64,000 nt of DNA from Comamonas resistens. Its GTDB lineage: Bacteria; Pseudomonadota; Gammaproteobacteria; Burkholderiales; Burkholderiaceae_C. Below the pieces are notes generated by a model. That model was not told where the DNA came from. It worked only from the letters and a program-made list of their open reading frames with translations, and made no database searches. The stretch's first letter is position 1. Each line of letters opens with the position of its first letter. The translations under genes and the position numbers were made by a program. Of this stretch, positions 22,495 through 41,266 are shown in pieces. The stretch covers positions 4,712,001-4,776,000 of the forward strand of contig NZ_CP125947.1 in assembly GCF_030064165.1 (NCBI RefSeq), given 5' to 3'.

Positions 22495-22615
22495 CTCTCG
22501 CCACATCAGCCCACCACGCCTTGAACCGGTGACAGGCGGGTTTCGGTTTGTTGACTGACTGCCTTCCGCTTCCTGCCGAAGCTGTCCGCTCCTTTTCCCA
22601 AAACGAGCGGACACC

Positions 22616-27309: not shown

Positions 27310-28884
27310 ATGAACCCGCAACCTCGCACCCCACGCGGCGCGCCCCAGGCCGCGCCACTGCTGTACGGCAGCGTGTGCAGCGGCATCGAGGCCGTGAGCC
27401 TCGCCTGGCAACCCCTCGGCCTCAAAGCCGCGTGGTTCGCCGAAATCGAGCCGTTCCCGAGCGCCGTGCTCGCCCACCGTTACCCCCACGTGCCGAACCT
27501 CGGCGACATGACCGCGATCGCCCGCCTGGTGCGCGCCGGCACCGTGCCGGCACCCGACATCCTGGTCGGCGGCACGCCGTGCCAGTCGTTCAGCGTGGCC
27601 GGTAGCCGTCGCGGGCTGGATGACCCGCGCGGAGCCCTTTCCCTTGCCTATGTGGAGCTTGCAAATGCCATTGACCAAACCCGCCACCAAGACCGCCGCC
27701 CGCCGGCAACCATCGTCTGGGAAAACGTCCCGGGCGTCCTCAACGACCGCAGCAATGCTTTCGGCCACTTTCTGGGAGCACTTGCCGGCGAAAGCCGTGC
27801 GCTCGAACCGCCAGGGGACAAGTGGGCGTACGCAGGTTGTGTGTCTGGACCCCGGCGCCGCATCGCGTGGAGGGTGCTCGACGCTCAACATTTCGGTGTC
27901 GCCCAACGCCGCAAGCGCGTGTTTCTTGTTGCAAGTGGTGGAGATGACCTCGATCCCGCCGAAGTACTTTTTGAGCGCGCTGGCGTGCTCGGGGATTCTT
28001 CTTCGGGCAGCGCGCCGTGGCAAGAAGCTGCCCGCGCTGCTGGATCTGGCGCTCAAGCAGCAGGCAGCGGGTACGCAGGACTAACGCAACCCTACGGCAA
28101 GGTCACGACGACGTTCGGGTTCAGTGGCGGCACCGGACCCGCCAATGTCGCGGCATGCCTGATGGCTGCTGGCCCCAAGCATGACATTTGCACCGAGACG
28201 TTCATGGTGCAGACGATCGCAGGCAACATCACTCACACCCTGAACACCGCCAACAACGGCAAGGGCAGCAGCGAGGACGGCACGGGTAAAGGTGTGCCAA
28301 TCATTGCCTTCACTGCTGAGGATTGCGGTGCTGATGCCACGGTTGATCGGACGCCGACGGTGCGCGCGAGCGTACATGCTGCAATTGCTTTCGCGCAGAA
28401 CTCGCGGGGTGAGCTACGGCTGGAGTCTGGGCATGGTCAGGTAGCCGGAACGCTTTCCACGGGGGGCGGCAAACCAGGTCAAGGCCGTCCCATGGTGGTT
28501 AGCGTGGCGCTGCGCGGCCGTCCCCAAGGCCTCGCGGCTGAATTGGGCGGCAGCGTGGCGGCCGCATTGCGCACCAGCAGCGGCGGTGCCGACAAGCCCC
28601 ATGTGCTGGCCCCCGACTTCGAGGCACATTTCCACTACGACTGGAACGACCCCGGCCCCGGCGACTGGTCGCACTGGCGGGTGCGGCGGCTGATGCCTGT
28701 GGAATGCGAGCGGCTGCAAGGCATGCCCGACGACTACACGCTGATCCCGTACCGTGGCAAGCCCGCCACCGACGCTCCGCGCTACAAAGCCATCGGCAAC
28801 TCCATGGCCGTCCCGTGCGTTGCCTGGCTGGGCCAACGGCTGGTGCAGCACCTGCACAAGACGGGCGAAACCGATTCGGATTGA
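27310..28884 (+). CDS. C5-cytosine DNA methyltransferase
   Basis: A 524-residue m5C methyltransferase. Motif I is GSVCSGIEAVSLAW, the catalytic Cys91 is in GGTPCQSFSVAG, and the ENV motif is near residue 139. The middle (about residues 255-420) is a long, Gly/Thr-rich variable region with repeated T-x-T-L/AGT-L elements, longer than in minimal enzymes. AGGAGA lies 6-11 nt before the ATG. No cognate restriction endonuclease is visible, so it is probably a solitary, anti-restriction methylase. Confidence 0.9.
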   Translation: MNPQPRTPRGAPQAAPLLYGSVCSGIEAVSLAWQPLGLKAAWFAEIEPFPSAVLAHRYPHVPNLGDMTAIARLVRAGTVPAPDILVGGTPCQSFSVAGSRRGLDDPRGALSLAYVELANAIDQTRHQDRRPPATIVWENVPGVLNDRSNAFGHFLGALAGESRALEPPGDKWAYAGCVSGPRRRIAWRVLDAQHFGVAQRRKRVFLVASGGDDLDPAEVLFERAGVLGDSSSGSAPWQEAARAAGSGAQAAGSGYAGLTQPYGKVTTTFGFSGGTGPANVAACLMAAGPKHDICTETFMVQTIAGNITHTLNTANNGKGSSEDGTGKGVPIIAFTAEDCGADATVDRTPTVRASVHAAIAFAQNSRGELRLESGHGQVAGTLSTGGGKPGQGRPMVVSVALRGRPQGLAAELGGSVAAALRTSSGGADKPHVLAPDFEAHFHYDWNDPGPGDWSHWRVRRLMPVECERLQGMPDDYTLIPYRGKPATDAPRYKAIGNSMAVPCVAWLGQRLVQHLHKTGETDSD

Positions 28885-28926
28885 TGCAAGACGCCAGCGG
28901 TGGCTGACGCCATTCTCATCCCTGCA

Positions 28927-29028
28927 TAGCCGAAGCATCGGCGACTGCCAGCAGCCACGGTCTTTCAGGCTGCGCCGCGGATTCTCCCGCGTCGACCTCC
29001 TTGTCCGCATCGCACTGTGCCGCGGACA
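28927..29028 (+). promoter_or_regulatory. Recurring multi-hairpin leader element, copy A
   Basis: Four stems: GCCGA/TCGGC, GCAGCC/GGCTGC (28951-28956 with 28968-28973), CGCGG/CCGCG, and TGTCCGC/GCGGACA around a 13-nt loop. It lies in the 307-bp gap before the GHKL ATPase gene. The same four-stem order with different bases occurs ahead of four other ICE genes. Confidence 0.7.
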
Positions 29029-29191
29029 CGCGCCCAGCCTGGGCGTTGGTGCTGCATCTCCAACGGGCCTATCCGCCCATTCCCCCTAGACCGGCCATTA
29101 CCGCCCGGCACGCCATCGCGGCGGGCTTCGGTGTACGCCGCTTCCATCTCCGCGCCAGACCGGCGCACCACCTCATCCAAGGAACCATGCC

Positions 29192-30769
29192 ATGACCACC
29201 ATCCGTCTTCAGACGAACCAGAACCGCCTGATCGAAACTTTTCGCCATGCGTTCACCCAGGCCTCGATGCTGGGCGAGCTGCTACAGAATGCCCGGCGCG
29301 CGAAAGCCCGCCACATCCACATCACCGCCGAAGGCGACACGCTCACCGTCAGCGACGACGGCGAAGGCATCGCCAACCTTCAGACCCTCATCTGCATCGC
29401 CGAATCAGGCTGGGACGAGGAACTGAAAGCCCGCGAAAACCCCTTCGGCATCGGTGTCCTCTCCACGCTGTACTTCGCACGCAGTCTGCGCGCGCATTCA
29501 CTTGATATGGCCTTTCGTGCCACCACCGCCGCGATCATCAACGGCGAGGACATCGACGTGATTGCCGCGCCAGCGCGCATCGGCACCGAGATCCGCTTGT
29601 GCGGTGTCGAGCCCCCGTACAAGGGCCCGACACTGACCCAGTGGGTCGCGCAGCAACTGGTGCGGCTGTGCGAAGCCTTCCCCGTCCCCGTGACATTCAA
29701 CGGTACAGAGGTCGAGCGCCCGCTATCGCGCCCAGGCTTGGCCTGGCGGGAAACAGACGTCGGCCAAATTCTCATCGATCTGGAAGGAGCGCCGTCACAG
29801 TACCGCTGCTATCTCCAGGGACTTCCCATCGGAAGGTGGCCATCCTCGCAGTTGCACCAGATCGTGATGTTGCGCGACGACATGATCGCCCGCCCACCGG
29901 ATCGCCAGCACCTGCTCCATGAAGAAGAGGATGGCAAGCGCATCCAGGCAGCGGTCGATCAGGCCTTCCGCAAGGCGTTGATCGAAGCAAAGGAGAAACT
30001 GTCCGGGGTCGATTTCGTGACGCTGTATGCATCCACGTGCCTGTCCTCATCGAACGCCGACCTGCTCAACAGCATTCCCTTTGTGCCACGCAGTTGGTTC
30101 CGTGACTGGGCCCATGAGCCGCCGGGCTTTCGCAGTCACTGGGGCAGGTACTGGGATAGGCCCCACGCTGAGGGTGTGGTCGTTCAGGAAGAGCTCCAAG
30201 AGGCCGGTGTCTGGTCTATCGACGCCGAAGACGATGAAGATGTACCAACCGCCGAGGTCTACCTGGCGGCCCGACAGGCTTTCCTGCTGGAGGAACATCG
30301 TCTCAGTGGTGATCATTGGCTGATGGATTTGGTTCGCTACGCAGACCCGGATCAGGTTGGCATCCACCATGGTGAAGTTCTCCACGTGGACGACAGCTTG
30401 CCATTCAACGGCGACATCGTTGGCGTCACCCTGGTCGGAACCTTGTCCGCCAGCCTTGGCGAGGACACCCGCGAATACGCGGTATCTGCCATCCGCAGGC
30501 ACGGTCGACTCTACGTAACACCCCATGCGAGTGGCGCCACACTGCTGTTGTCCGACTACATCTTCGATGACCGCTACGACGAAGGTCGGGAAGATGAGGA
30601 TGCACTGACCATCGCCACGTTCATCGCGGTCGGCTGCTCGGTTTCGCCTGCCCGTGCCATCGAGGAACTGCTGCCCAGGTCCTGGCGATACACCCCGCAG
30701 TCCAAGCTCGTCGGTGCCACCGTGCACCTGAGTTTCGATGCCGATGGCAAGCTCGCCAGCGTGCAGTGA
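29192..30769 (+). CDS. GHKL/HSP90-like ATPase domain protein
   Basis: A 525-residue protein with a Bergerat ATP-binding fold: N box ELLQNARRAKA (Asn33), G1 box SDDGEGIANL (residues 55-62) and G2 box NPFGIGVLSTLYFA (residues 83-96). The rest resembles no named family to me; residues about 240-525 are acidic. HSP90-like or MutL-like folds share this domain and no histidine-kinase H-box is present. It is conserved in ICE backbones; function is unknown. AAGGAACC precedes the ATG. Confidence 0.75.
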   Translation: MTTIRLQTNQNRLIETFRHAFTQASMLGELLQNARRAKARHIHITAEGDTLTVSDDGEGIANLQTLICIAESGWDEELKARENPFGIGVLSTLYFARSLRAHSLDMAFRATTAAIINGEDIDVIAAPARIGTEIRLCGVEPPYKGPTLTQWVAQQLVRLCEAFPVPVTFNGTEVERPLSRPGLAWRETDVGQILIDLEGAPSQYRCYLQGLPIGRWPSSQLHQIVMLRDDMIARPPDRQHLLHEEEDGKRIQAAVDQAFRKALIEAKEKLSGVDFVTLYASTCLSSSNADLLNSIPFVPRSWFRDWAHEPPGFRSHWGRYWDRPHAEGVVVQEELQEAGVWSIDAEDDEDVPTAEVYLAARQAFLLEEHRLSGDHWLMDLVRYADPDQVGIHHGEVLHVDDSLPFNGDIVGVTLVGTLSASLGEDTREYAVSAIRRHGRLYVTPHASGATLLLSDYIFDDRYDEGREDEDALTIATFIAVGCSVSPARAIEELLPRSWRYTPQSKLVGATVHLSFDADGKLASVQ

Positions 30770-30779
30770 TCCTCCTTTG

Positions 30780-30805
30780 CAGCTCCCTTCGGGGAGCTGT
30801 TTTTC
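30780..30805 (+). terminator. Terminator after the GHKL gene
   Basis: CAGCTCCC-TTCG-GGGAGCTG followed by TTTTTC: an 8-bp stem with a stable UUCG loop and T-run, beginning ten bases after the stop codon. Confidence 0.9.
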
Positions 30806-30884
30806 TTGGGGCCAATCCGGTGGCGATGAATTCAGATTGCCGGATGACGCACGGCGGCGCTGCGCCGATGCTCCATCGCATGTG

Positions 30885-30985
30885 TTGCTGCTGTCGCAGC
30901 GCCATGCCCGCAGCCAGGGTGTCCAGGCTGCCGTGGGTTTCCACCACGTCACCCGCCAGTTCGCCCCGGCATCTCACCGGCGAAC
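30885..30985 (+). promoter_or_regulatory. Recurring multi-hairpin leader element, copy B
   Basis: Stems: GCTG/CAGC, GCAGCC/GGCTGC (30910-30915 with 30926-30931), GTGG/CCAC (30933-30944), and GTTCGCC/GGCGAAC around a 13-nt loop (30959-30985). It lies upstream of the 187-residue ICE protein gene. Confidence 0.72.
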
Positions 30986-31085
30986 GCTGCCCACCGGGCA
31001 TCGATGCCTCCTTTCTCCAACCCACGGGATGGTCGCCACATCCCGCCAGGGGCGTGTCGCCACCCGGTCAATTTCAGGACTTTCC

Positions 31086-31649
31086 ATGGAAAACATTACC
31101 AACCAAGACCGCATCACGCTGAAGAATCTCAAGGTGGCAGACTTCGCAAGCGAAGAGACTCTGTGCTTCACCGCCACTGTGATCTTCGACGGCAAGCCTG
31201 TCGCCACTGCCAGCAACGACGGACATGGTGGCTCCACCCGCCTGCTCGCGCTGGAAGGCCAGCGTGACCGCTTCACCGAGGCAGAAGCCTTTGCCGCCAG
31301 CCTGCCACCGGACGTCACCGAGTACGACGACCCCAACGACAGGTCGCGCCGGTTCACCATCGACATCACGCTGGACTATCTGGTCGATGGACTGGCCAAC
31401 GCCATCCACGCCGACCGCAAGCTGCGTACTTCGTTCAACCGCGACGTCGGCAACAAGGTGCTGTTCATCAAGGACGGCAAACTGCTGTTCATCAAAGGCA
31501 TCAAGCTCAAGGCCATCGCTGACCGCAAGACGTACTTCGCGTCGCTGCGCACCCGCCAGGCCCAGCCCATCGTGATCCTCGCCGAGCTTCCGCCCGAGCA
31601 GGCATTCGACCTGTGGAAGCAGCATGTCCTGGGCGACAAGCCCGACTGA
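31086..31649 (+). CDS. Conserved ICE protein of unknown function, 187 aa
   Basis: The protein is mixed alpha/beta with no recognised domain. Features are an N-terminal TATVIFDGKPVATASNDGHGGSTR beta-rich part and a Lys-rich middle with a small internal duplication (VLFIKDGKLLFIKGIKLKA). It is bounded by a structured leader upstream and a strong terminator downstream, so it may form its own transcription unit. The start follows CAGGA at a short distance. Confidence 0.65.
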   Translation: MENITNQDRITLKNLKVADFASEETLCFTATVIFDGKPVATASNDGHGGSTRLLALEGQRDRFTEAEAFAASLPPDVTEYDDPNDRSRRFTIDITLDYLVDGLANAIHADRKLRTSFNRDVGNKVLFIKDGKLLFIKGIKLKAIADRKTYFASLRTRQAQPIVILAELPPEQAFDLWKQHVLGDKPD

Positions 31650-31672
31650 CCCGGTGCCTTTGCACCGTCCTG

Positions 31673-31703
31673 ACAGCCTCGCGTGACGCGGGGCTGTTTT
31701 TTT
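31673..31703 (+). terminator. Terminator after the 187-aa ICE gene
   Basis: ACAGCC-t-CGCG-tga-CGCG-g-GGCTGT pairs over 10 bp with one symmetrical mismatch and is followed by seven T. Confidence 0.9.
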
Positions 31704-31786
31704 CGCTATTCGCATGAATCGGGGCCAGGCCGGATGCGGTTTTCCAACTGACGCAGCGCGGCCCGCGCACGAAGCTGCCCGCATGT

Positions 31787-31883
31787 TCGCTGATTCGTCA
31801 GCACATGCCAGCAGCCAGGGTTCCAGGCTGCGCGGAGTTCGCTCCGTACAACCCACCAGTCCGCCCAGCATCGTCCTGCGGAC
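31787..31883 (+). promoter_or_regulatory. Recurring multi-hairpin leader element, copy C
   Basis: Stems: GCTGA-ttcg-TCAGC (31789-31802), GCAGCC/GGCTGC (31811-31816 with 31826-31831), GGAG-TTCG-CTCC (31834-31845), and GTCCGC/GCGGAC around a 13-nt loop (31859-31883). This is the cleanest copy and lies ahead of the 69-residue gene. Confidence 0.75.
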
Positions 31884-31980
31884 GAGCGTCCTCGCGACGC
31901 CGATGCATCTTTCTCAACCCCAGCGGGAGCCGCCATCCCGCCTAGGCGTGGTCGCCTCGCATCTTTCAAGGAGTCCGACC

Positions 31981-32190
31981 ATGCCAAACGCCTCTTTCGG
32001 CGAACTCGCCTTGTTCCATACCGGCAAGCAATTGCCGCTTCAAGTCCTGCCTAGCGCCGCCGGTCATTACATCGGGACGCGCGATTCCCAAGGGCCTGTC
32101 TCGCGGGAATCCCGCGAGTACTTCCGCAGCTCTGCCGCTGCGGAACGCGCCCTCGCAAGAGGCGGCTGGTCTCAGCTCGCCATCCCTTGA
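31981..32190 (+). CDS. Small conserved ICE protein, 69 aa
   Basis: A short hydrophilic protein starting MPNASFGELALFHTGKQL. It contains GHYIGTRDSQGPVSRESREYF followed by an Ala-rich stretch. An AAGGAG sits 7 nt before the ATG and a structured leader lies upstream, both supporting translation. No domain recognised. Confidence 0.65.
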   Translation: MPNASFGELALFHTGKQLPLQVLPSAAGHYIGTRDSQGPVSRESREYFRSSAAAERALARGGWSQLAIP

Positions 32191-32212
32191 TCCACTCAGT
32201 AAGGAATCTCTC

Positions 32213-32602
32213 ATGAGCCAGCTTCCCCTGGAAGTTGCCGAAGAGATCGCACGGGAGCAGCAGCACTTCGCTGCTGCGCCCGATGCCTTCTTCAAGGCAT
32301 GGAAACGTGGTGTACAGATCGCCGGCCCCCGGTGGTTCGGTGACGGCACCCAAGAGGGCTTTGAGCAGGCCCGCGACAAATGGGCCTTGTGCCCGGACAT
32401 GCCGCGGATCAGCAAGGCCCTGGGCGTCCTGAGCGCCGGGGAGCGCATGTTCCTCGCCGCGATGGTGAGCTTCTACAACGCCCACAGGAGCGCGCCTTTG
32501 CTGCGCCGCTGCGGGTTTGAAGGCCTGTCCGACCTGAGCGGCCTCGACCTTGCACGCCGCCAGGTCATTGCCAGCCTGGTGCTGCACTACAACGGCTGGT
32601 AA
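32213..32602 (+). CDS. Conserved ICE protein, 129 aa
   Basis: Mostly helical protein with EVAEEIAREQQHFAAAPDAFFKAWKRG near the start and FLAAMVSFYNAHRSA in the middle. AAGGAA precedes the ATG by 6 nt. It follows the 69-residue gene with a 22-nt gap, so the two are probably cotranscribed. A short GACCC-ttgc-GGGTC hairpin follows the stop. Function unknown. Confidence 0.65.
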   Translation: MSQLPLEVAEEIAREQQHFAAAPDAFFKAWKRGVQIAGPRWFGDGTQEGFEQARDKWALCPDMPRISKALGVLSAGERMFLAAMVSFYNAHRSAPLLRRCGFEGLSDLSGLDLARRQVIASLVLHYNGW

Positions 32603-32846
32603 GACCCTTGCGGGTCTCGCCGCCATTCCTCTCCGCCCCGAACGAGGGACACGCACCCTCCGGGGCCGTGTCCCTCCGACACTACAACCATTTGTATGTC
32701 CTTGCCAACTGCGGCCTGATCGAGGTGTTAAAGGCGCTGGGCGACTTCAGCGATTTCGGCGAATAGACCGGAATTTCTTCTTTTTCCCCCTTGCGGATGC
32801 TCTGTCCGCAGGGGCTGGCTCCGCTCATTTCTCGAAAGGAGCCACC

Positions 32847-33548
32847 ATGGCAAACAACTACTACGAAGGCACCGGCGTGCTCATGCTCGACCGCGTGACC
32901 CCCATCATCAAAGCGCTGTTCAGCGGCTTCAAGCTGGACGAAAACTACCCCGGTAACGGGCAGGCCTACATCGCCCAGATCTCCGAAACCAACAATCCTC
33001 AATGGGACGATGTCTTTGGCGGCCTGGAAGATTTGGCCGCGCAGCTTGGCGCCCCCATGCCCAAGGACGAAGGATCGGAAGACGAAGGTTTGCCGATCCC
33101 GCAGGCCATCGAACGGCTGGCCGAGTTCTTCGGCAGCAGCAAGGACGCAGAACTGGCGAACCTGATCGAACACCATAACTTCGAGGACGGTGCCGATCTC
33201 GACGCACTGCTTTTGATCGCAACCTGCCTGGACGACGGCCATCACCTGACCGCCATTCAATACGAGGGGTGCTGGTATTGCAGCAAACCGCGATTGTTCG
33301 AGTTTGGTGGCGACGGCTGCTATCTGAGCCGGGAGGTTCAGGTCGTCAGAGCATCTTCACGGGCACGCCAACTCGGCGACCAACTGCGCAAAGCCATTCT
33401 GGCCGCCGACGCAGAAGAAGCCTCGGCCGTGATTGCACTGGAGGCCGGCAGCCTGCTCGCCGGCATCAATGACGAGCGATTTCGCATGAATGTACGTCGA
33501 CGCGTTGCAGAACGGCTGGCCCAAGCGCCAGTAATCAGCGCCGTCTGA
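32847..33548 (+). CDS. Conserved ICE protein, 233 aa, acidic
   Basis: An acidic protein with no enzyme motif recognised; MANNYYEGTGVLMLDRVTPIIKALF is the N-terminus and a CLDDGHHLTAIQYEGCWYCSKPRLFEFGG stretch lies centrally. The C-terminal 60 residues are helical. GAAAGGAG is 7-14 nt upstream of the ATG, which decides against longer in-frame starts. The 244-bp gap before it carries GCGGATGCTCTGTCCGC, a hairpin just before the ribosome binding site. Confidence 0.65.
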   Translation: MANNYYEGTGVLMLDRVTPIIKALFSGFKLDENYPGNGQAYIAQISETNNPQWDDVFGGLEDLAAQLGAPMPKDEGSEDEGLPIPQAIERLAEFFGSSKDAELANLIEHHNFEDGADLDALLLIATCLDDGHHLTAIQYEGCWYCSKPRLFEFGGDGCYLSREVQVVRASSRARQLGDQLRKAILAADAEEASAVIALEAGSLLAGINDERFRMNVRRRVAERLAQAPVISAV

Positions 33549-33626
33549 CGCAGTTTCCACTTTAACCCACCGGGTGCCATTCTCGGTGACGGGAATTGGC
33601 TCCATTATTCAATCTGGAGAAATCCC

Positions 33627-34364
33627 ATGTCCCAGAAACCCAATCCTTTCCTTCGCGGCTACTGGAATCTGAAAGTCGTCCGCACGCTGTGCATCAGCTA
33701 CGACGATGGTAGTCCGCATGTCTGGCGAAACATCCATGCGAGCCAGCAGCATTTCTCCGACGAGGAACTGGTTTCATCCTCCTGCATCGTCACCAGCGAT
33801 TTTGCGGTGGTCAGCTATGGTCGCGAGCCCGCGAGTTCCGAGGTGCTGGCCGAATGCCATGCCGGCGAAGGCGTCTGCGGTGAAGGCATGATCGACGCCG
33901 TGGTCTATGCCATCCAAGGCGAAGATTTCGACGGCCGCCCGCTCCACGTCGCCGACTGCTATTCGGCCGAGGCCGCGCAGGAAGTCGTGCAGCGCCTGAG
34001 TTTCGAGACCGGCTACTACAGCCGTTGCTGGGAAATCAGCAGTGCACACATCAGCCACGAAACCGGCCAGTACCTCGCCAACCTGGCAGACCTTGCTACG
34101 CCGGAGGCCTTCCTGTTCATCGCCTTCCGGGTTCCGTACAGCCCTGCAATCGGCATCAAGCTGATTTCTACGCCCTGGACGGATGAGAACCTGGAGCACG
34201 CTGAAGGCATCAGCGCGCAGCAGCTTCGGCAGGAGCACCGCAGCAAGGGTATGCCGGACGACCTGGCGAACATCCTTGAACTGGCTGGCCAGGCCGATGT
34301 GCGCATCCTCATCCTCGATGCCGATGCGCCCGTGTTGCTGGGTCTGCCGCTGACCGAGCCCTAG
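33627..34364 (+). CDS. Conserved ICE protein, DUF5983-like C-terminus
   Basis: A 245-residue protein. The C-terminal half (SSAHISHETGQYL ... VRILILDADAPVLLGLPL) resembles the DUF5983 pattern of plasmids and ICEs; I am unsure of the exact family. CTGGAGAAATCCC precedes the ATG. No catalytic residues recognised. Confidence 0.6.
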   Translation: MSQKPNPFLRGYWNLKVVRTLCISYDDGSPHVWRNIHASQQHFSDEELVSSSCIVTSDFAVVSYGREPASSEVLAECHAGEGVCGEGMIDAVVYAIQGEDFDGRPLHVADCYSAEAAQEVVQRLSFETGYYSRCWEISSAHISHETGQYLANLADLATPEAFLFIAFRVPYSPAIGIKLISTPWTDENLEHAEGISAQQLRQEHRSKGMPDDLANILELAGQADVRILILDADAPVLLGLPLTEP

Positions 34365-34461
34365 CAGGCGCGCAACGCGCCAGCTTTCCTCTTTGTCTCC
34401 CCAAAGCCGGCCCGACTCCTCGCCAGGAGCCGGGCTGGTCCATTTTCATAGGAGCACCCCC

Positions 34462-34740
34462 ATGTTCCCCGACCTCATCTCTCGCGCACCCGACTTCGAG
34501 CACCAACTCGGAGCCTGCGTCAACGCCATGAGCCAGGACGACGCCATCGGCCAAATCCTGGTATTCGAGCGCACGAGCGGCACGCTGCACATGCGCCATA
34601 TTGCCAGCGTCGACCTGCTGGGCACCGACATCGACGACTACGAGATGGTCGTCTTCGACGGTGGCAACACCAGCGGCGATGCGTGGAAGCACGTTTTCTT
34701 TCCACGTCAGCGTGAACACTACTTCGTGTACGAAGCCTGA
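34462..34740 (+). CDS. Small conserved ICE protein, 92 aa
   Basis: A 92-residue acidic protein (FEHQLGACVNAMSQDDAIGQ ... DIDDYEMVVFDGGNTSGDAWK). AGGAG is 7 nt upstream of the ATG. The gap before it carries a GCCCG...CGGGC hairpin with a TTTTC run directly before the ribosome binding site. It is the last backbone gene before the thioesterase/rhodanese cargo block. Function unknown. Confidence 0.62.
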   Translation: MFPDLISRAPDFEHQLGACVNAMSQDDAIGQILVFERTSGTLHMRHIASVDLLGTDIDDYEMVVFDGGNTSGDAWKHVFFPRQREHYFVYEA

Positions 34741-34746
34741 CCCTGC

Positions 34747-34775
34747 CAGCCCCTCATCCGAGGGGCTGCTTGTTC
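34747..34775 (+). terminator. Terminator at the left edge of the sulfur cargo block
   Basis: CAGCCCCTC-atcc-GAGGGGCTG is a 9-bp perfect stem followed by CTTGTTCT. It sits between the convergent 92-aa gene and the thioesterase gene. Confidence 0.75.
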
Positions 34776-35237
34776 TCAGGCCTTCGCCACGAACTGCACG
34801 GCCACCATCACGCCGGTGACGCACACCTCACCGCCCGCGCTCAGTGTCAGGTCGATGACGGCCTTGCGTCCCTCTAGGGAACACAGCGTGCCTTCGATCA
34901 GCAGTTCGACACCGAGGGGCGTAGGCCGCCGGTAGTCCACCTTCAGCGAGCCGGTGACAAAGCGGATCGGCGGGCCGCCGTCACCCATGACACGGCTTTG
35001 CGCCCGGTATGCGAAGGCCGCCGCGCTGGCGGTGCCGTGGCAGTCCAGCAACGAGGCCAGCATGCCGCCGTAGACGTTCCCCGGATAGCCACCGCTGTAC
35101 ATCGACGCCGGCGTGAAACGCGCATGGGTCCGTTCCCCGTCGATATAGCTCTTGAGATGGAACCCATGCGGGTTGGCTGGCCCACAGCCGTAGCAGTGCG
35201 AGAATTCGGCCGGGTAATGATCCTGGATGGCTTGCAT
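34776..35237 (-). CDS. PaaI-like hotdog-fold thioesterase
   Basis: A 153-residue single hotdog domain. The start MQAIQDHYPAEFSHCYGCGPANPHG and the central NVYGGMLASLLDCHGTASA pattern fit the PaaI/YiiD acyl-CoA thioesterase group. It follows the ArsR-rhodanese gene on the same strand with a 29-nt gap, which suggests one operon. The acyl substrate is unknown. Confidence 0.8.
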   Translation of the reverse strand: MQAIQDHYPAEFSHCYGCGPANPHGFHLKSYIDGERTHARFTPASMYSGGYPGNVYGGMLASLLDCHGTASAAAFAYRAQSRVMGDGGPPIRFVTGSLKVDYRRPTPLGVELLIEGTLCSLEGRKAVIDLTLSAGGEVCVTGVMVAVQFVAKA

Positions 35238-35266
35238 GTCGATCCTTGGTTGAACAATGGCGAGGC

Positions 35267-35947
35267 TCAAGCCTCCACGGCCAGCCCGGCTGCCTTCCAC
35301 TCCGGGAAGCCGTCTTCGAGCCGGCGCACCTTGAAGCCCTTGGCGCGCAGCGCCGCCACGGCCTCGAAGGACATGACGCAGTACGGCCCCCGGCAGTAGG
35401 CAATGAGTTCGTGGCCCTTGGGCAAGTCGGCCAGGCGCCGCTCCAACTCGTCGGCCGGGATGTTGATGGCGCCGGCCACGTGGCCCAGCGCGTATTCCGC
35501 TTCCGGGCGCACGTCCAGCACCGTCACCTGGTCGGCATTCAGGCGCTGTGCCAGCTCCTCGCGCGTGACGGCTTCCAGCGCATCGCGGTCGTGGAAGAAG
35601 TCGCGCATCACGCCGCGCACCTCCGCGATGTTGCGTTCGCCCACGCGGCCAAGCGCCTTCAGCAGCGCCACCACCTCGACGTCGCCCGCCAGCCGGTAGA
35701 AGACCCGCTTGCCCTGGCGTTCGGCCTCCACCAGCCGCGCGCGCCGCAGCAGTTGTAGGTGGCGCGAGGCGTTGGCCATCGACAGGCCGACCAGTCCAGC
35801 CAGGTCTTCGACGCTGCGCGGCCCCTGCGCCATGCCTTCCAGCAGTTCCAGCCGGTGCGCGTGGCCCAGCGCCTGGGCCACGGTGGCCAGGTTCTCAAAC
35901 ACCACGTGCTTGGGACTTTCGGATGAGGTTGACAAGATCGCTTTCAT
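35267..35947 (-). CDS. ArsR-type repressor fused to a rhodanese domain
   Basis: A 226-residue fusion. Residues about 15-100 are an ArsR winged helix (LGHAHRLELLEGMAQGPRSVEDLAGLVGLSMANASRHLQLLRRA). Residues about 125-220 are a rhodanese domain with loop YCRGPYC carrying the persulfide cysteine. Such fusions are thought to sense or carry sulfane sulfur. It is transcribed divergently from the dsrE gene, and a palindrome AATCAACATATTGATT lies 9 nt upstream of its start. Confidence 0.88.
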   Translation of the reverse strand: MKAILSTSSESPKHVVFENLATVAQALGHAHRLELLEGMAQGPRSVEDLAGLVGLSMANASRHLQLLRRARLVEAERQGKRVFYRLAGDVEVVALLKALGRVGERNIAEVRGVMRDFFHDRDALEAVTREELAQRLNADQVTVLDVRPEAEYALGHVAGAINIPADELERRLADLPKGHELIAYCRGPYCVMSFEAVAALRAKGFKVRRLEDGFPEWKAAGLAVEA

Positions 35948-35955
35948 AATTACAC

Positions 35956-35971
35956 AATCAACATATTGATT
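35956..35971. promoter_or_regulatory. Operator candidate AATCAA-CATA-TTGATT
   Basis: A perfect 6-bp inverted repeat with a 4-bp spacer in the AT-rich divergent region between the ArsR-rhodanese gene and dsrE. Position and symmetry suit an ArsR-family dimer that would repress both sides. Confidence 0.7.
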
Positions 35972-36041
35972 GAATGATGGCATGATTGCTGTCAAGCAGC
36001 AAGTCATTCCCTACAAAGCCATTTTCTCCGCTGAGGCCCCC

Positions 36042-36395
36042 ATGAAAACCCTTCTCATCATCAACGACCCGCCCTACGGCACCGAGCGCATGTACAACGC
36101 GCTGCGTCTGGCCTCCAAGCTGCTCAAGGACGCGGCCAACCACGTCAGCGTGTTCCTGATGGCCGATGCCGTCTCGGGCTGCAAGGCCGGGCAGAAGACG
36201 CCCGACGGCTACTACAACGTCGAGCGCATGCTGCGCCGCGTGACGAGCAACGCCCAGGGCGAGGTGCTGCTGTGCGGCACATGCCTGGATGCGCGCGGCA
36301 TCAAGGACGAGGAGGTGATGCCCGGTGCGCGCCGCAGTACCATGGACGAACTGGCCGCAGCCACCGTGGCGGCAGACAAGGTGCTGGTATTCTGA
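36042..36395 (+). CDS. DsrE/DsrF-like sulfur relay protein
   Basis: A 117-residue DsrE-family protein (MKTLLIINDPPYGTERMYNALRLASKL ... VSVFLMADAV). The conserved cysteine region is VLLCGTCLDARGI, where a persulfide can be carried. The stop overlaps the next start as TGATG. It is the first gene of the plus-strand half of the sulfur cargo block. Confidence 0.85.
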   Translation: MKTLLIINDPPYGTERMYNALRLASKLLKDAANHVSVFLMADAVSGCKAGQKTPDGYYNVERMLRRVTSNAQGEVLLCGTCLDARGIKDEEVMPGARRSTMDELAAATVAADKVLVF

Positions 36396-37060
36396 TGGCC
36401 GGCATCTATCTCGACTACAACGCCAGCACGCCCATAGCGCTGGAAGTGCGGGCGGCCATGCTGCCGCTGCTGGAGATGGCTTACGGCAATCCCTCCAGCG
36501 GTCATTTCGCCAGCACCCCGGCCAAGGCGGCGCTGGAACGGGCGCGTGCTCAGGTGGCGGCGCTACTGGGTGCGGCACCCGACGAAATCGTCTTCACCAG
36601 CGGCGGCAGCGAGGCCAACAACCTCGCGCTCAAGGGCAGCTTCCTGCCGTCGCTCTTCACAGGCTCGCTGATCGCGCGCTTCGGTGTGCTGCGCATCATG
36701 CTCACGGGCGTGGTGCTGTTCATCGGCCACATCCTGACGACGCTCACCGGAACCGGCTTCACGTCCTTCGCCAGCGCACTGGTGCTGCTGGGCGTCGGCT
36801 GGAACTTCATGTACATCGGCGGCACCACGCTGCTGACCGGCACCTACACCGCCGCCGAGAAGGGCCGTGCGCAGGCCATCAACGACATGACGATCTTCGC
36901 CGTGGGCCTGACCTGTTCCTTCAGCGCCGGCAGACTGCTGCAGGCCCTGGGTTGGCAGACCATGAACGTGGTGCTGATCCCGTGGCTGGTGCTGGCGGCG
37001 CTGTCTCTGCTGTGGCTCGGGATGCGCCAGCGGTCGCAAGCCGTGAAGGCGGGTGCATGA
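36395..37060 (+). CDS. Chimera: N-terminal cysteine desulfurase fragment fused in frame to C-terminal MFS fragment
   Basis: Residues 1 to about 83 match the start of an IscS/NifS cysteine desulfurase (YLDYNASTPIALEVRAAML, YGNPSSGHF, IVFTSGGSEANNLALKG). Residues about 84-221 switch to the last four or so helices of a major facilitator protein (SLFTGSLIARFG ... LLGVGWNFMYIGGTTLLTG). The PLP-binding Lys and the first two thirds of the transporter are absent. An internal deletion from one gene into the other, in frame, is the simplest origin. It is unlikely to work as either enzyme, but the frame and coupling to both neighbours are intact. Confidence 0.85.
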   Translation: MAGIYLDYNASTPIALEVRAAMLPLLEMAYGNPSSGHFASTPAKAALERARAQVAALLGAAPDEIVFTSGGSEANNLALKGSFLPSLFTGSLIARFGVLRIMLTGVVLFIGHILTTLTGTGFTSFASALVLLGVGWNFMYIGGTTLLTGTYTAAEKGRAQAINDMTIFAVGLTCSFSAGRLLQALGWQTMNVVLIPWLVLAALSLLWLGMRQRSQAVKAGA

Positions 37061-37602
37061 GCGCGCAGACAAGCAACGAGGCAGCGGCCGAAGATGCGGC
37101 CTACCGCCGCCTGTCCGAGCGCTTCGAGGCCCTGGGCATCGGCGCGAAGGTCGTGCCGTACCCCGAACACACGACCGTCGAGGAAGGCAAGGCACTGCGC
37201 GGCGCCATGGCCGGGACATTCACCAAGAACCTGCTGCTCAAGGACAAGAAGGACCGGCACTTCCTGCTGGCGATCCATGAGGATCGGGTACTGGACCTGA
37301 AGGCCGTTTCGGCGCTGTTGGGCGGCAAGGGGCACCTGAGTTTCGTGACCGGCGAACGCATGCAGGCGTTGCTCGGCGTGCAGCCGGGTGCGCTGACGCC
37401 GCTGGGCCTGTTGCAGGACGAAGAACGCTTGGTGACGGTGGTGGTGGATGCCTCGCTGATGGGTGATGCCCAACTGAACTTCCATCCTCTGCAGCAGACA
37501 GAGAGCGTCGGGCTGACGCCCAAGGAGCTGGTGGCCTTTGTGCACTCATGCGGGCGCGAGCCGCTGCTGGTGGATTTCGACGTACCGCTGCCAGCCGCGT
37601 AG
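37057..37602 (+). CDS. Prolyl-tRNA deacylase (YbaK/ProX family)
   Basis: A 181-residue trans-editing protein that would hydrolyse mischarged Ala- or Cys-tRNA(Pro). Family features are the N-terminal VVPYPEHTTVEEGKALRG, KNLLLKDKKDRHFLLAI with the conserved Lys, and GALTPLGLL. Its start overlaps the chimera's stop as ATGA. Why an editing enzyme is in this block is unclear; cysteine homeostasis is a possible link. Confidence 0.85.
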   Translation: MSAQTSNEAAAEDAAYRRLSERFEALGIGAKVVPYPEHTTVEEGKALRGAMAGTFTKNLLLKDKKDRHFLLAIHEDRVLDLKAVSALLGGKGHLSFVTGERMQALLGVQPGALTPLGLLQDEERLVTVVVDASLMGDAQLNFHPLQQTESVGLTPKELVAFVHSCGREPLLVDFDVPLPAA

Positions 37603-37627
37603 CGCCTGCGGCACGGGAGAACAGGAC

Positions 37628-38248
37628 ATGCAATCCAGAGAACATTGGGATCACGTCTATCGAACCAAGGGGCCGACCGGCGTGAGCTGGTTCCAGCCGC
37701 ACGCCAGCGATTCGCTGGCGTTGATCCGCGAAACCGGCGTGCCGCTCGATGCGCCGAGCATCGACGTGGGCGGCGGTGCCTCGACGCTGGTGGACGATCT
37801 GCTGGACCTGGGCCATACCAGCCTCACCGTACTGGATCTGTCGGGTGCCGCGCTGGCGGCATCCCAGGCCCGGCTGGGCGAGCGCGCCAAGGCGGTGGCC
37901 TGGAAGGTCGGGGACATTACAAAGGTCGAGCTACCCGCGCTGGCCTACGACGTGTGGCACGACCGCGCGGTGTTCCACTTCCTGACGGCGCCGCAGGAGC
38001 GCCAGGCCTATGTTCGAGCGATGCTGCACGCCCTGCGGCCGGGCGGCTTCGCCATCATCGCCACCTTCGCGGATGACGGGCCGCAGCAGTGCAGCGGATT
38101 GCCAGTGGCGCGCTACAGCCCGGACGAGCTGCATGCGCAGTTCGGCGATGCGTTCTCGATGCTGCGGCAGGAGCGGCAAGCGCATCACACGCCCTTCGGG
38201 ACGGTGCAGCAGTTTGTTTGCTGCCTATTCCAGAAGACGGCCTCATGA
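37628..38248 (+). CDS. Class I SAM-dependent methyltransferase
   Basis: A 206-residue methyltransferase with motif I SIDVGGGASTLVDDL, followed by LTVLDLSGAAL and VWHDRAVFHFLTAPQERQAY. The start REHWDHVYRTKGPTGVSWFQPH is typical of a small group found next to sulfur and metal genes. Thiopurine/tellurite-type methyltransferases share this start, so a small sulfur or metalloid substrate is possible, but not shown. It is the last gene of the block. Confidence 0.8.
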   Translation: MQSREHWDHVYRTKGPTGVSWFQPHASDSLALIRETGVPLDAPSIDVGGGASTLVDDLLDLGHTSLTVLDLSGAALAASQARLGERAKAVAWKVGDITKVELPALAYDVWHDRAVFHFLTAPQERQAYVRAMLHALRPGGFAIIATFADDGPQQCSGLPVARYSPDELHAQFGDAFSMLRQERQAHHTPFGTVQQFVCCLFQKTAS

Positions 38249-38355
38249 AATCTTGAGGAGCGACATGGCATAGGCCATAGGAAGAAACCGGGCGCGGCGC
38301 AGTGCTGTTTCCTACGGGCGGGTAGTCTGCTCCAGGGCCATCCTTGGCCCCATGT

Positions 38356-38459
38356 TCGTCGGCATAGCCGACACATGCCCAGGCAGCCGAGACCTTCGAG
38401 GCTGCAAGCGCGAGTAACCGTGCTGGTCGTTTCTTCCTACGGACGCACCGCGTCCATCC
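38356..38459 (+). promoter_or_regulatory. Recurring multi-hairpin leader element, copy D
   Basis: Stems: GTCGG-catag-CCGAC (38358-38372), GCAGCC/GGCTGC (38383-38388 with 38400-38405). The third stem is not clear. At the fourth position GGACGC-acc-GCGTCC forms a shorter-loop hairpin. CAAGGGAT...ATCCCTTG follows just before the ribosome binding site of the 270-aa gene. Confidence 0.65.
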
Positions 38460-38523
38460 ACCCACAAGGGATCTCTCCCTTGTGGGCGGGGAATCCCTTG
38501 TTTCATCTTCAAGGAGATTTCCC

Positions 38524-39336
38524 ATGGATCGCTCTCTCATCAAGACCCTGATGCCTTCGCTTGTCGCAGGCCATGTCCCCCGCAACGTGCGGTCGTTCAA
38601 GTACCGCGTGTTCGATGATCAACCACAGTCCTCGACACTGGGCTTCGCCATTGATCCCAAGCCCTTCGACGGCAAGGTGGTCGCCGCCAACGACGACGCC
38701 ATCGTCGTCAAGCTCAAGCCCAGCGAGTTCGCGGTGCTCGACCCCAACCTGGTGACTACCGTTCCCAGCGAAGGTGCCAAGGTGCATGTCCAACCGTATG
38801 CCCGCCGCCGTTTTGACGGCCTGCGTGCGGACACCCCGGAAGAACGCACGGAGATGACGTCCGACGGCATTCCTTATACCGTCAAGACGCACATCCTCGG
38901 CTCCGCGCCGGCCAAGCTGCCCATCCCCGAGCCGAAATGCCCGGAACTGCACGACCTCATCCAGCAACTGGAAGAACTTCCTGCTCCTGATGGTTTTCGG
39001 AAGATCACTCACATGCTGGTCGATGCGGGTGCCAAGGACTTCACCTGGGTCGATCCGACGCCCAGCAAAATCATCGAAACTCCGCCCGCCATCAGCTTTT
39101 CCGTTTCCACGGCGAAGTTCGAGGGGAGCGTCACCGTGCTCTATGACCGTGCCGGGGACGTGTACGTGATCGAACTGCACCAAGGTGACGAACTGGTCGA
39201 ACGCATCGACGAGGTGTATTTCGACAGCCTCGGCGAAGTGCTCGCTCATCGGATTGACGACGGGCAATGGCGCCAGATCCGCGTGGACGTCCTCAATGCG
39301 AAGGCGACCCGCCCGCGCAAGGCGCTTCCCGCATGA
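38524..39336 (+). CDS. Conserved ICE protein, 270 aa
   Basis: Protein with a beta-rich N-terminus (SFKYRVFDDQPQSSTLGFAIDPKPFDGKVV) and a Pro-rich centre; ends in basic residues (KATRPRKALPA). No domain recognised. AAGGAG is 7 nt before the ATG. It continues the ICE backbone on the right side of the sulfur cargo block and is coupled to the next gene by ATGA. Confidence 0.65.
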   Translation: MDRSLIKTLMPSLVAGHVPRNVRSFKYRVFDDQPQSSTLGFAIDPKPFDGKVVAANDDAIVVKLKPSEFAVLDPNLVTTVPSEGAKVHVQPYARRRFDGLRADTPEERTEMTSDGIPYTVKTHILGSAPAKLPIPEPKCPELHDLIQQLEELPAPDGFRKITHMLVDAGAKDFTWVDPTPSKIIETPPAISFSVSTAKFEGSVTVLYDRAGDVYVIELHQGDELVERIDEVYFDSLGEVLAHRIDDGQWRQIRVDVLNAKATRPRKALPA

Positions 39337-39551
39337 CCGGCGAGAACATGGGTGTTTGGGTGATCTATTCGCCCAACGAGTCGGCCATCAGCGATGGCTC
39401 AGGCTTCTGGTCCAGCGAGCATGGCTGGGTCGAAATCGACCAGGCCACGCACTTCAGTCCCGCGCAGGCCTGCGACGTGGCGCTGCCAATGGCTACCGGC
39501 CATGACGCACGGTTCGTCGCGCTGAGCGAAGCCATGCAGCACTACCGCTGA
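39333..39551 (+). CDS. Small conserved ICE protein, 72 aa
   Basis: A 72-residue protein (MGVWVIYSPNESAISDGSGFWSSEHGWVEIDQ) whose ATG overlaps the stop of the preceding gene. The aromatic-rich sequence is probably a small folded beta domain. Followed by a strong hairpin that ends close to the next gene's ribosome binding site. Function unknown. Confidence 0.65.
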   Translation: MTGENMGVWVIYSPNESAISDGSGFWSSEHGWVEIDQATHFSPAQACDVALPMATGHDARFVALSEAMQHYR

Positions 39552-39581
39552 CTCCGCAGCCAACCGGCAACTTGTCCCCAC

Positions 39582-39616
39582 AGGCCCTCCATCCATTCGG
39601 TGGAGGGCCTTTTTTT
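39582..39616 (+). terminator. Terminator hairpin directly before the DUF3085 gene
   Basis: AGGCCCTCCA and TGGAGGGCCT form a 10-bp stem followed by seven T. The T-run is followed at once by CAGGAGATTCAACC and the ATG, so no promoter fits between terminator and gene. Confidence 0.88.
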
Positions 39617-39630
39617 CAGGAGATTCAACC

Positions 39631-39984
39631 ATGTCACTGCGATTCAAAGGCTCCGACCTGCGCCCCATCCTGGCCGAGGCCGTTACCAACCAATGCCGCG
39701 TTGTCCTTGCCAAGGATCAGGGTGTGTACTTCCTCGCCGAGCGTGGGGAACGCCATCCCGATGGCCGCGTGAAGCTGCTGGCCTATGCCGTCGGCTGCAA
39801 CCCGGATACCGACCCGTTCGATGACTGGTGGGAACTGGCGCGCACCGAGCTGGGCGGCGACGACTTCGGCGAGTTCTTCGACCCGAAGGAAGGCGTCTTC
39901 GCACGCATCCTGCACGGCACAGACGATTTGATGTTGTCCGCCACCGCAACGCACCTGTCGCTGGAGGTGGTGCCACCGGCGTAG
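39631..39984 (+). CDS. DUF3085 family protein
   Basis: A 117-residue protein with the DUF3085 pattern: RFKGSDLRPILAEAVTN, GVYFLAERG and CNPDTDPFDDWWELART. The family is confined to ICEs, plasmids and phages; no activity known. AGGAG lies 8 nt before the ATG. Published comparative-genomics work named a leader RNA motif after this family; the hairpin just upstream may belong to it. Confidence 0.8.
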   Translation: MSLRFKGSDLRPILAEAVTNQCRVVLAKDQGVYFLAERGERHPDGRVKLLAYAVGCNPDTDPFDDWWELARTELGGDDFGEFFDPKEGVFARILHGTDDLMLSATATHLSLEVVPPA

Positions 39985-40005
39985 TTCGGCTACTACCGTC
40001 CCTCA

Positions 40006-40032
40006 CGGCCCCTTCATGGGGGCTTTCTTTTC
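40006..40032 (+). terminator. Terminator after the DUF3085 gene
   Basis: GGCCCC-ttca-TGGGGGCT with a following TTTCTTTTC run. The stem is about seven base pairs counting G-T pairs. Confidence 0.7.
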
Positions 40033-40129
40033 TACGCACCGCGGCTGTTGCCGCGCGTGCGCGTTCGTCTCCAGCCGCCATGGCCTGCCGCGTCGGCCCG
40101 TCCGCCGACCACCCCACGGAGACGAACCC

Positions 40130-40972
40130 ATGCACGACCCGTTCAAGATTACCCAACCGACCTGCATCAGCTTCTCGGGTGGGCGCACCAGCGCCTACAT
40201 GCTCTGGCGTGTGTTACAGGCCAATGATGGTCTGCCCGCGGACACTGTGATCTGCTTCGCCAACACTGGCAAGGAAGTGGAAGCAACCCTGCGCTTCGTG
40301 CGCGACTGCGCCGAGCACTGGCAGGTGCCGATCCGCTGGCTTGAATACCTGCCCACGGCACCGGGCTTCACGCTGGTGGACTTCGATCGGGCCAGCCGAC
40401 AGGGCGAGCCGTTCGAGGCACTGATCCGCAAACGCCAGTATCTGCCCAATCCCGTCGCACGTGGCTGCACCACCAGCCTGAAGATCCGCCCGATGCACCA
40501 CTACCTGCGGAATCTGGTCTGGGAGGACTGGGACCAGATGATCGGCATCCGGGCCGATGAACAACGTCGGGTCGCCAAGATTCGCGCGCGCGGCCATTCC
40601 ACCGAATCGACCCACGAGACCATGTGCATGCCGCTGGCGGATGCCGGCATCACTGTTCGCGACGTGGGCGCGTTCTGGCAGGCGCAACCGTTCAACCTCG
40701 ACCTGCTGACAGTGAACGGGCGCACGCTCGAAGGCAACTGCGACCTGTGTTTCTTGAAACCGCTCAGGCAGCGCCTGGCCCTCATCAAGGCCCGTCCGGA
40801 GGCTGCTGCGTGGTGGATTCGTATGGAGTCCCTGAACCTGGCGAGCAAGCCCAGCGGGGCGCGGTTCCGCGCTGATGGTCCCAGCTACGCTGACCTGGCG
40901 CGCTTTGCTGCCGATCAGGGCGACCTGTTCGACGCCACCGAGGAATCCATCGCCTGCTTCTGCGGCGACTGA
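40130..40972 (+). CDS. PP-loop (PAPS reductase/adenine nucleotide alpha-hydrolase) family protein
   Basis: A 280-residue protein with the PP-loop SFSGGRTSAYML (residues 14-25) that binds ATP pyrophosphate. GIRADEQRR and the cysteine pairs CDLC (about residue 206) and CFC at the extreme C-terminus follow; they could hold a metal or iron-sulfur centre. Similar proteins occur in phage nin regions and in phosphorothioation (DndC) systems. Sulfate reduction is unlikely for an ICE gene. The role here may be nucleotide or DNA/tRNA modification. Confidence 0.72.
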   Translation: MHDPFKITQPTCISFSGGRTSAYMLWRVLQANDGLPADTVICFANTGKEVEATLRFVRDCAEHWQVPIRWLEYLPTAPGFTLVDFDRASRQGEPFEALIRKRQYLPNPVARGCTTSLKIRPMHHYLRNLVWEDWDQMIGIRADEQRRVAKIRARGHSTESTHETMCMPLADAGITVRDVGAFWQAQPFNLDLLTVNGRTLEGNCDLCFLKPLRQRLALIKARPEAAAWWIRMESLNLASKPSGARFRADGPSYADLARFAADQGDLFDATEESIACFCGD

Positions 40973-41044
40973 GGAAAAGGGATGCCCCCGGATACCGATT
41001 GATTGCTGCCTCGCACGCGAGGCCCGGCCATGCTGATCCCATGC

Positions 41045-41149
41045 CTGCTGACGTTGTCAGCGACATGCCAGGCAACCATCGGTCTTCGAGGTTGCGGCGC
41101 AGTTCCTACTGCGTGACCGAGCCAGCTCGCACCGCATCCATCCGCGAGC
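41045..41149 (+). promoter_or_regulatory. Recurring multi-hairpin leader element, copy E
   Basis: Stems: GCTGAC-gtt-GTCAGC (41047-41061), GCAACC/GGTTGC (41072-41077 with 41090-41095), GCAG-ttccta-CTGC (41099-41112), and GCTCGC/GCGAGC around a 13-nt loop (41125-41149). The second stem carries a compensated change relative to GCAGCC/GGCTGC in the other four copies. It lies upstream of the DUF3577 gene. Confidence 0.78.
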
Positions 41150-41266
41150 GACCACCAGTCTCTGGTGGCGGATGCTTTCGCCTTATCAACCCACCGCGGG
41201 GTTACGCACCTTTCCCCGCATGCGTGGGGCCGGTGTGTCTCCGCTTCTTCCCTATGGAGATTCACC

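Follow-up and report, generated by a model that had tools for sequence, protein, structure and literature searches.

Candidate translational switches in the radC RNA leaders of an integrative and conjugative element related to ICEclc

INTRODUCTION

Why should five genes of one locus each be preceded by the same series of hairpins? The question is raised by a 64,000-nucleotide (nt) stretch of Comamonas resistens DNA (contig NZ_CP125947.1, positions 4,712,001 to 4,776,000; the whole stretch is called the window below), which is part of an integrative and conjugative element (ICE) related to ICEclc. A preliminary description of its sequence had reported five multi-hairpin elements with covarying stems and taken them for a folded, probably cis-acting leader RNA. 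We find that the five elements are almost certainly radC RNAs (Rfam RF01754), and we propose that radC leaders are translational switches, a reading to which we give a probability of about 0.5.

RESULTS

An Rfam scan of the window matched all five elements to RF01754, end to end and on the + strand, with scores of 64.5 to 122.7 bits (E values of 9.8e-10 to 5.7e-23). All are above the gathering score of the family, 40 bits, whereas matches to all other Rfam families stayed below their own gathering scores throughout the window. Judged by these matches, all five copies almost certainly belong to the radC family (Table 1). Rfam assigns RF01754 the type Cis-reg, and the table of Weinberg 2010 marks radC “Y” as an RNA, “y” as cis-regulatory and “?” as a riboswitch (PMC2864571), in agreement with the leader RNA first proposed. 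Each copy is followed on the same strand by a start codon with a Shine-Dalgarno (SD) sequence. In the literature searched, no paper was found that assigns radC RNA a function.

The four stems reported earlier are present where they had been placed, with Rfam extending the bounds of each element, and stem 2 indeed reads GCAGCC/GGCTGC in four copies and GCAACC/GGTTGC in the fifth. The 13-nt loop said always to close stem 4 occurs in four copies; the element at 38356-38459 carries a GGACGC-ACC-GCGTCC hairpin. The distance of 170 to 265 nt to the start codon holds if measured from the start of the element, but is 36 to 139 nt from its Rfam end. The guess that the element might be a motif named after DUF3577 or DUF3085 had to be abandoned in favor of radC: nothing so named matched up to an E value of 1, although the presence of such motifs in the Rfam release used was not checked. 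Genes of both kinds do occur here: the gene at 41267, which follows one of the elements, is a DUF3577 gene, and a DUF3085 gene is found close by at 39631.

The fold extends beyond these stems. In four window copies the loop of stem 4 (P4), GCATC or GCACT, pairs with GATGC or GGTGC at the 3′ end to form a pseudoknot, and a further hairpin, P5, is located between P4 and the 3′ partner of the pseudoknot. In an alignment of 20 diverse copies with 36 pairs, pseudoknot included, 95.9% of the cells pair, a proportion that none of 500 shuffles attained and that compares with at most 48.4% when partners were slid; further pair types were no commoner than in shuffles (250/500). The pseudoknot helix of P4 loop GCAUC and 3′-end GAUGC pairs in 100% of these cells, with changes on both sides at three of its five pairs.

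Searches with a model built from the 20-sequence alignment without the pseudoknot yielded 204 matches from 100 loci and 86 matches from 63 sources. The resulting alignments of 150 rows (54 of the 204 matches were left unaligned) and 86 rows, in which identical rows were counted once, have 96.2% and 96.9% of cells paired, with double changes at 19 and 21 of the 36 pairs, respectively, and no shuffle among 500 reached any of five measures. For the nested helices these alignments are biased toward the model. The pseudoknot is free of this bias, and it is paired in 97.8% and 96.3% of its cells. The covariation that the preliminary description wanted sought in a wider alignment is thus strong, and it extends over P1 to P3, P4, P5, the 3′ hairpin and the pseudoknot. 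Our search pattern fixes part of stem 2, so that variation in this stem is seen mainly in copies that do not match the pattern. A divergent radC-like subtype (L121:3190-3332, before an 83-amino-acid protein, and L177:7746-7886) appears by eye to have no clear P4 or pseudoknot.

Downstream of the Rfam motif, most subtypes have a hairpin, P6, followed by a hairpin that covers the SD sequence. The anti-SD arm of the latter has two possible partners, the SD and P6, and cannot pair fully with both at once. When this arm is paired with the 5′ arm and loop of P6 from the same leader, the predicted energy is −10.4 kcal/mol, versus −7.9 kcal/mol for swapped partners, across 12 gene families, with a mean p of ~0.0007 by permutation; across 19 subtypes, every permutation did worse. 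Of 22 subtypes, these 19 were retained; the rest had no start, no SD hairpin of 6 pairs or no P6 of 4 pairs. With a cruder delimitation of P6, which splits some of its stems so that part of P6 itself is counted, p was 0.0065 in 11 families. Control genes treated alike, of which 63 of 104 regions could be parsed, yielded a difference of −0.40 (standard deviation 0.73), and 0.4% of 2000 sets of twelve reached −2.5; in this comparison the radC leaders stood at −2.80, or −2.42 to −3.24 when any one family was left out. In the window, the potential P6/anti-SD switch is clear in copies 3, 4 and 5. By eye, several leaders seemed to allow good pairing between the P2 loop and the SD; this pairing was dropped, as cognate and swapped partners did not differ significantly (p 0.15 and 0.26). 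Likewise, SD occlusion as such was set aside as weak relative to controls.

We then asked on which strand the folded molecule lies. Since a G-U pair in sense-strand RNA corresponds to an A-C mismatch in the complementary strand, an excess of G-U favors an RNA read from the strand of the gene. Over all helices, G-U occupies 84 cells and A-C 23; with one count per subtype, pair and type, the events number 33 and 20. Subtype 0 (72 of 290 model matches) was left out of this count for its differing 3′ half. The pairing thus favors sense-strand RNA over single-stranded DNA (ssDNA) of the complementary strand, modestly so on the event count.

This bias bears on the idea with which the analysis began, that the elements act as ssDNA, for instance as an Frpo-like promoter on the strand that enters the recipient in conjugation. 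Some observations suit it. A TraI_2 relaxase place lies within 130 kb on the contig for 138 of 160 radC places, on the same strand in 138/138 and with radC on its 5′ side in 133/138. These 160 places are 150 listed from 40 pattern-chosen genomes, in which more exist, and 10 from the genome of the window; 22 have no relaxase within 130 kb, and five short or weak relaxase rows were left out. Moreover, anti-defense genes in the leading region of plasmids lie on the T-strand, some of them using Frpo, as described in part of PMC11541004. However, most core genes seen lie on the same strand anyway, and neither oriT nor the transfer direction was found (the portion of PMC6561031 available gives none). 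Unlike Frpo, the elements consist of separate short hairpins, and a simple consensus scan found no sigma-70-like site in the window copies. The pairing bias and the short, separate hairpins led us to reject an ssDNA promoter as the principal explanation; we consider an ssDNA role quite improbable.

ICEclc provides published transcript data for such leaders. If ICEclc open reading frame (ORF) numbers are read as stop coordinates, a single constant accommodates 29 of 30 in a genome that carries two copies of the same cluster (G465, presumably P. knackmussii), while the next-best constant fits 3; this identifies the stretch as ICEclc. Our model R1 located five radC elements there, with Rfam in agreement. 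The genes that follow, taken from start codons with an SD, end exactly at 89247, 88400, 84835, 81655 and 58432; the automatic start of ORF58432, which falls inside the radC element, was not used. ORF89247, homologous to the 187-amino-acid window protein, is read as only 84 amino acids. No radC element was found at inrR, alpA, ORF67231, traI or intB13 in the 120 kb of ICEclc searched. The words radC, Rfam, riboswitch and leader are absent from the main texts of PMC9286271 and PMC2892462, from parts of which the following data are taken.

By primer extension, a 5′ end with a weak signal was mapped some 250 bp upstream of ORF81655 (PMC2892462). The element begins 233 nt (our own model) to 235 nt (Rfam) upstream of the ORF81655 start, so the 5′ end maps approximately 15 to 17 nt from its edge, just upstream, as would suit the cis-acting leader of the preliminary description. 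In a dot blot at 72 h, ORF81655 (177), ORF87986 (100) and ORF84835 (29.8) were the top three of 21 probes, followed by ORF75419 (28) (PMC2892462). Subpopulation promoters were reported for ORF88400, ORF81655 and ORF58432, the last weak or not independent, while coverage steps without subpopulation promoter activity were noted at ORF73676, ORF84835 and ORF89247 (PMC9286271); the latter two have a radC leader. Coverage in RNA sequencing was highest upstream of ORF81655, and the authors suggest that post-transcriptional mechanisms act on Pint and P81655 (PMC9286271). Deletion of ORF81655-75419 or ORF88400-84388 did not measurably change transfer to an isogenic strain in published data, indicating that the radC-led genes of both regions are dispensable in that test.

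These abundances might also be explained by a stabilizing or processing element, the compact 5′ fold protecting the message or remaining after cleavage and thereby raising its level. The three most abundant probes at 72 h lie close behind ICEclc radC leaders, ORF83350 on the ORF84835 transcript gave 0.9 versus 29.8 for ORF84835 (PMC2892462), and coverage rises upstream of the radC-led ORF84835 and ORF89247 although the cloned fragments showed no subpopulation promoter, for which the authors suggest transcript processing (PMC9286271). Yet strong promoters could account for abundance, ORF73676 shows such a coverage step as well without having a radC RNA, and a box 60 nt before the ORF84835 and ORF89247 elements makes a missed promoter possible. 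As stabilization also leaves the cognate P6/anti-SD complementarity unexplained, we regard it as unlikely. Still less probable is transcription attenuation or antitermination, in which the leader would gate entry of RNA polymerase into the operon. The 14.5-kb ICEclc transcript, whose signal falls from 5′ to 3′ (PMC2892462), and the strong terminator-like sites about 70 nt upstream of window copies 2 and 3 (30779 and 31672) are compatible with it; however, the latter end the upstream unit, and a stem of 6 pairs at 38407, within copy 4, is the only terminator-like site listed for the five window leaders.

The box in question, approximately AAAnnGGG-N11-TKCCGNTT, is bipartite and lies 60 nt before the element in four of the five ICEclc copies, those of ORF84835 and ORF89247 included, and 60 to 61 nt before four of the five window copies (model R1 bounds), as scored with a matrix trained on the radC leaders themselves. 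Its fixed spacing fits a transcription start at the edge of the element. It also precedes inrR, which has no radC RNA. A 27-bp ICEclc promoter motif is stated in the available part of PMC9286271 to be absent from other regions, and our motif search for it did not converge. A weaker box match (12.8 bits) at window positions 22521-22550 lies about 95 nt before an AcaB-family gene at 22616 and has no radC match. The box could be counted, as a second dyad-like site at fixed spacing, in favor of a duplex DNA operator, with stem 1 as the dyad for a regulator; stem 1 with its CATG/CATG is nearly palindromic. We consider such an operator very improbable, because P2, P3, P4, P5 and the pseudoknot, all beyond stem 1 and CATG, covary too, and DNA dyads would not favor G-U.

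The genome of the window holds 10 radC copies in two clusters, each of one orientation. We observed two separate ICE-like clusters there, at approximately 2.68-2.72 Mb and 4.74-4.80 Mb, in each of which the radC RNAs and a TraI_2 relaxase lie on a single strand. A sixth copy of the window's ICE lies outside the window (contig positions 4794050-4794198), before a RadC-domain gene. The radC pattern occurred in 1 of 229 genomes of a class sample, that of the window, in 2 of 41 relatives, the window's own genome included, and in 91 of 298 genomes of a family sample around G268, at least five of which (G268, G277, G288, G292 and G307) were known beforehand. Two 40-genome sets, 39 of them shared, were pattern-chosen except for the window's genome, so that 40/40 is not a prevalence. 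Viral contigs gave 86 pattern stretches, none of which model R1 recovered at an E value of 0.01, and these were discarded as chance matches. A 1.1-Mb plasmid of Tistrella mobilis (NC_017958.1) carries a 94.7% identical copy of window positions 41020-41266 and encodes proteins that share 81% identity with two of the radC-led proteins of the window.

Within the window, positions 35267-38248 hold rhodanese/ArsR-like, tRNA-editing-domain and methyltransferase genes among the radC-led core genes, probably cargo. Strong terminator-like sites also lie before the DUF3085 gene (39582) and a PAPS-reductase-like gene (40007).

TABLE 1 Leader elements, output hairpins, upstream boxes and downstream genes of the window, and radC elements of ICEclc
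Sequence	Feature	Position	Strand	Details
Window	radC RNA copy 1	28912..29052	+	RF01754, 74.8 bits; leader of HATPase-like gene at 29192
Window	radC RNA copy 2	30869..31007	+	RF01754, 64.5 bits; leader of 187-amino-acid gene at 31086
Window	radC RNA copy 3	31772..31906	+	RF01754, 78.5 bits; leader of 69-amino-acid gene at 31981
Window	radC RNA copy 4	38341..38487	+	RF01754, 96.8 bits; leader of 270-amino-acid gene at 38524; stem 4 loop 3 nt
Window	radC RNA copy 5	41030..41175	+	RF01754, 122.7 bits; leader of DUF3577/STY4534-family gene at 41267
Window	P6 hairpin, copy 3	31923..31941	+	Alternative pairing −8.5 kcal/mol
Window	SD-occluding hairpin, copy 3	31950..31980	+	Anti-SD arm 31950-31958; −8.2 kcal/mol
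Window	P6-equivalent hairpin, copy 4	38461..38486	+	Overlaps 3′ hairpin of Rfam match; alternative pairing −13.8 kcal/mol
Window	SD-occluding hairpin, copy 4	38488..38523	+	Anti-SD arm 38488-38500; −16.9 kcal/mol
Window	P6 hairpin, copy 5	41196..41219	+	5′ arm and loop complementary to anti-SD arm; alternative pairing −17.0 kcal/mol
Window	SD-occluding hairpin, copy 5	41232..41266	+	Anti-SD arm 41232-41243; −13.4 kcal/mol
Window	Upstream box, 60 nt before copy 1	28853..28882	+	19.4 bits; inside 3′ end of dcm-like gene
Window	Upstream box, 60 nt before copy 3	31714..31743	+	18.4 bits
Window	Upstream box, 61 nt before copy 4	38282..38311	+	19.9 bits
Window	Upstream box, 60 nt before copy 5	40972..41001	+	19.7 bits
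Window	525-amino-acid protein	29192..30769	+	Weak HATPase_c / sacsin-like N terminus, both below cut-off
Window	187-amino-acid protein	31086..31649	+	Without family
Window	69-amino-acid protein	31981..32190	+	Without family
Window	270-amino-acid protein	38524..39336	+	Without family
Window	DUF3577 / STY4534-family ICE replication protein	41267..42175	+	PF12101 4.4e-90; NF040584 1.5e-74
ICEclc	radC RNA before ORF89247	89717-89581		Model R1 bounds; Rfam agrees
ICEclc	radC RNA before ORF88400	88817-88684		Model R1 bounds; Rfam agrees
ICEclc	radC RNA before ORF84835	85830-85650		Model R1 bounds; Rfam agrees
ICEclc	radC RNA before ORF81655	82805-82662		Model R1 bounds; Rfam agrees
ICEclc	radC RNA before ORF58432	59154-59009		Model R1 bounds; Rfam agrees

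DISCUSSION

We propose, with moderate confidence, the following mechanism. The mRNAs of ICE core operons would carry structured 5′ leaders that start at or very near their first nucleotides. The first part of the leader would be a conserved receptor-like domain, made of P1 to P5 and, in most copies, the pseudoknot, and the second a variable output before the start codon, composed of P6, the anti-SD arm and the SD. With the anti-SD arm on the SD the ribosome-binding site would be closed, whereas with this arm on the 5′ arm and loop of P6 it would be open. A common trans-acting factor, probably an ICE or host protein, would bind the shared domain and so switch several operons together. Family, fold, orientation, gene context and the leader-specific P6/anti-SD complementarity are evident from sequence; ICEclc transcription and the high abundance of three radC-led ICEclc units are published data. 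From these we infer competing helices in the cell, translational control and the trans-acting factor.

More tentatively, and with a good measure of doubt, one may see in radC RNA the sensor half of a modular switch, a single domain joined to many unrelated P6/anti-SD/SD outputs and read by an ICE or host factor, which would time several ICE operons together in transfer-competent donors or in the new host.

Several points weigh against a translational switch. The step from the radC domain to the switch is our inference. We arrived at the P6/anti-SD pairing post hoc, after testing three others and with arms chosen by folding, and it is exploratory. Pairing of the anti-SD arm with the SD separated cognate from swapped partners at p 0.017 in 20 subtypes and p 0.09 in 12 families. 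The probability that the SD is paired was 0.71 in radC leaders and 0.62 in control genes (p 0.06), and the energy was not significantly below that of controls (p 0.23). In the window, the leaders of the genes at 29192 and 31086 (copies 1 and 2) have weak SD hairpins (−5.1 and −2.2). High abundance holds for three radC-led units of ICEclc and is not general to them: at 24 h ORF84835 (9.5) was outside the top three, and ORF53587, a distal probe and the only one on the ORF58432 transcript, gave 1.4 at 72 h (PMC2892462). Rapid amplification of 5′ cDNA ends gave no specific fragment upstream of ORF58432, 66202, 73676, 81655, 88400 and 89746 (PMC2892462), a failure that is not specific to radC, as ORF66202, 73676 and 89746 have no such leader. 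Finally, the reporter fusions carried their own ribosome-binding site and were blind to translation (PMC9286271). Among the alternatives, we rank mRNA stabilization first, followed by attenuation, an ssDNA structure and a DNA operator.

The radC motif of Weinberg 2010 was likewise found before genes on mobile DNA of Proteobacteria. The nested structure line of RF01754 contains neither P4 nor the pseudoknot, both seen here; these helices may already be known, as radC is named among the families whose database structure misses covarying pairs in the part of PMC7657543 available. The Rfam model does not cover the part made of P6 and the anti-SD/SD hairpin, save in copy 4, whose P6 overlaps the 3′ hairpin of the model. 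Frpo promoters resemble radC elements in their mobile-element setting and single orientation; they have −35 and −10 sequences in one hairpin, of which none was found in the window copies, whose pairing suggests sense-strand RNA.

Translational riboswitches and protein-responsive leaders have a conserved domain and, downstream of it, alternative helices that involve the SD. The radC leaders may share this layout, although unlike those systems they come without a known ligand or binding protein. The ICEclc transfer-competence regulon comprises the same core genes as the window, with radC RNAs at five ORFs, three of which have published subpopulation promoters; promoters of the regulon such as those of inrR, alpA, ORF67231, traI and intB13 differ from the radC-led units in having no radC RNA. 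Although radC RNA has been catalogued since 2010, its tie to ICEclc, with the genetics, transcripts and single-cell reporters of that system, makes its function directly testable. If our reading is correct, part of the ICE program is controlled after transcription, beyond the promoter-centered model of transfer competence, as the ICEclc authors themselves suspected for P81655 (PMC9286271).

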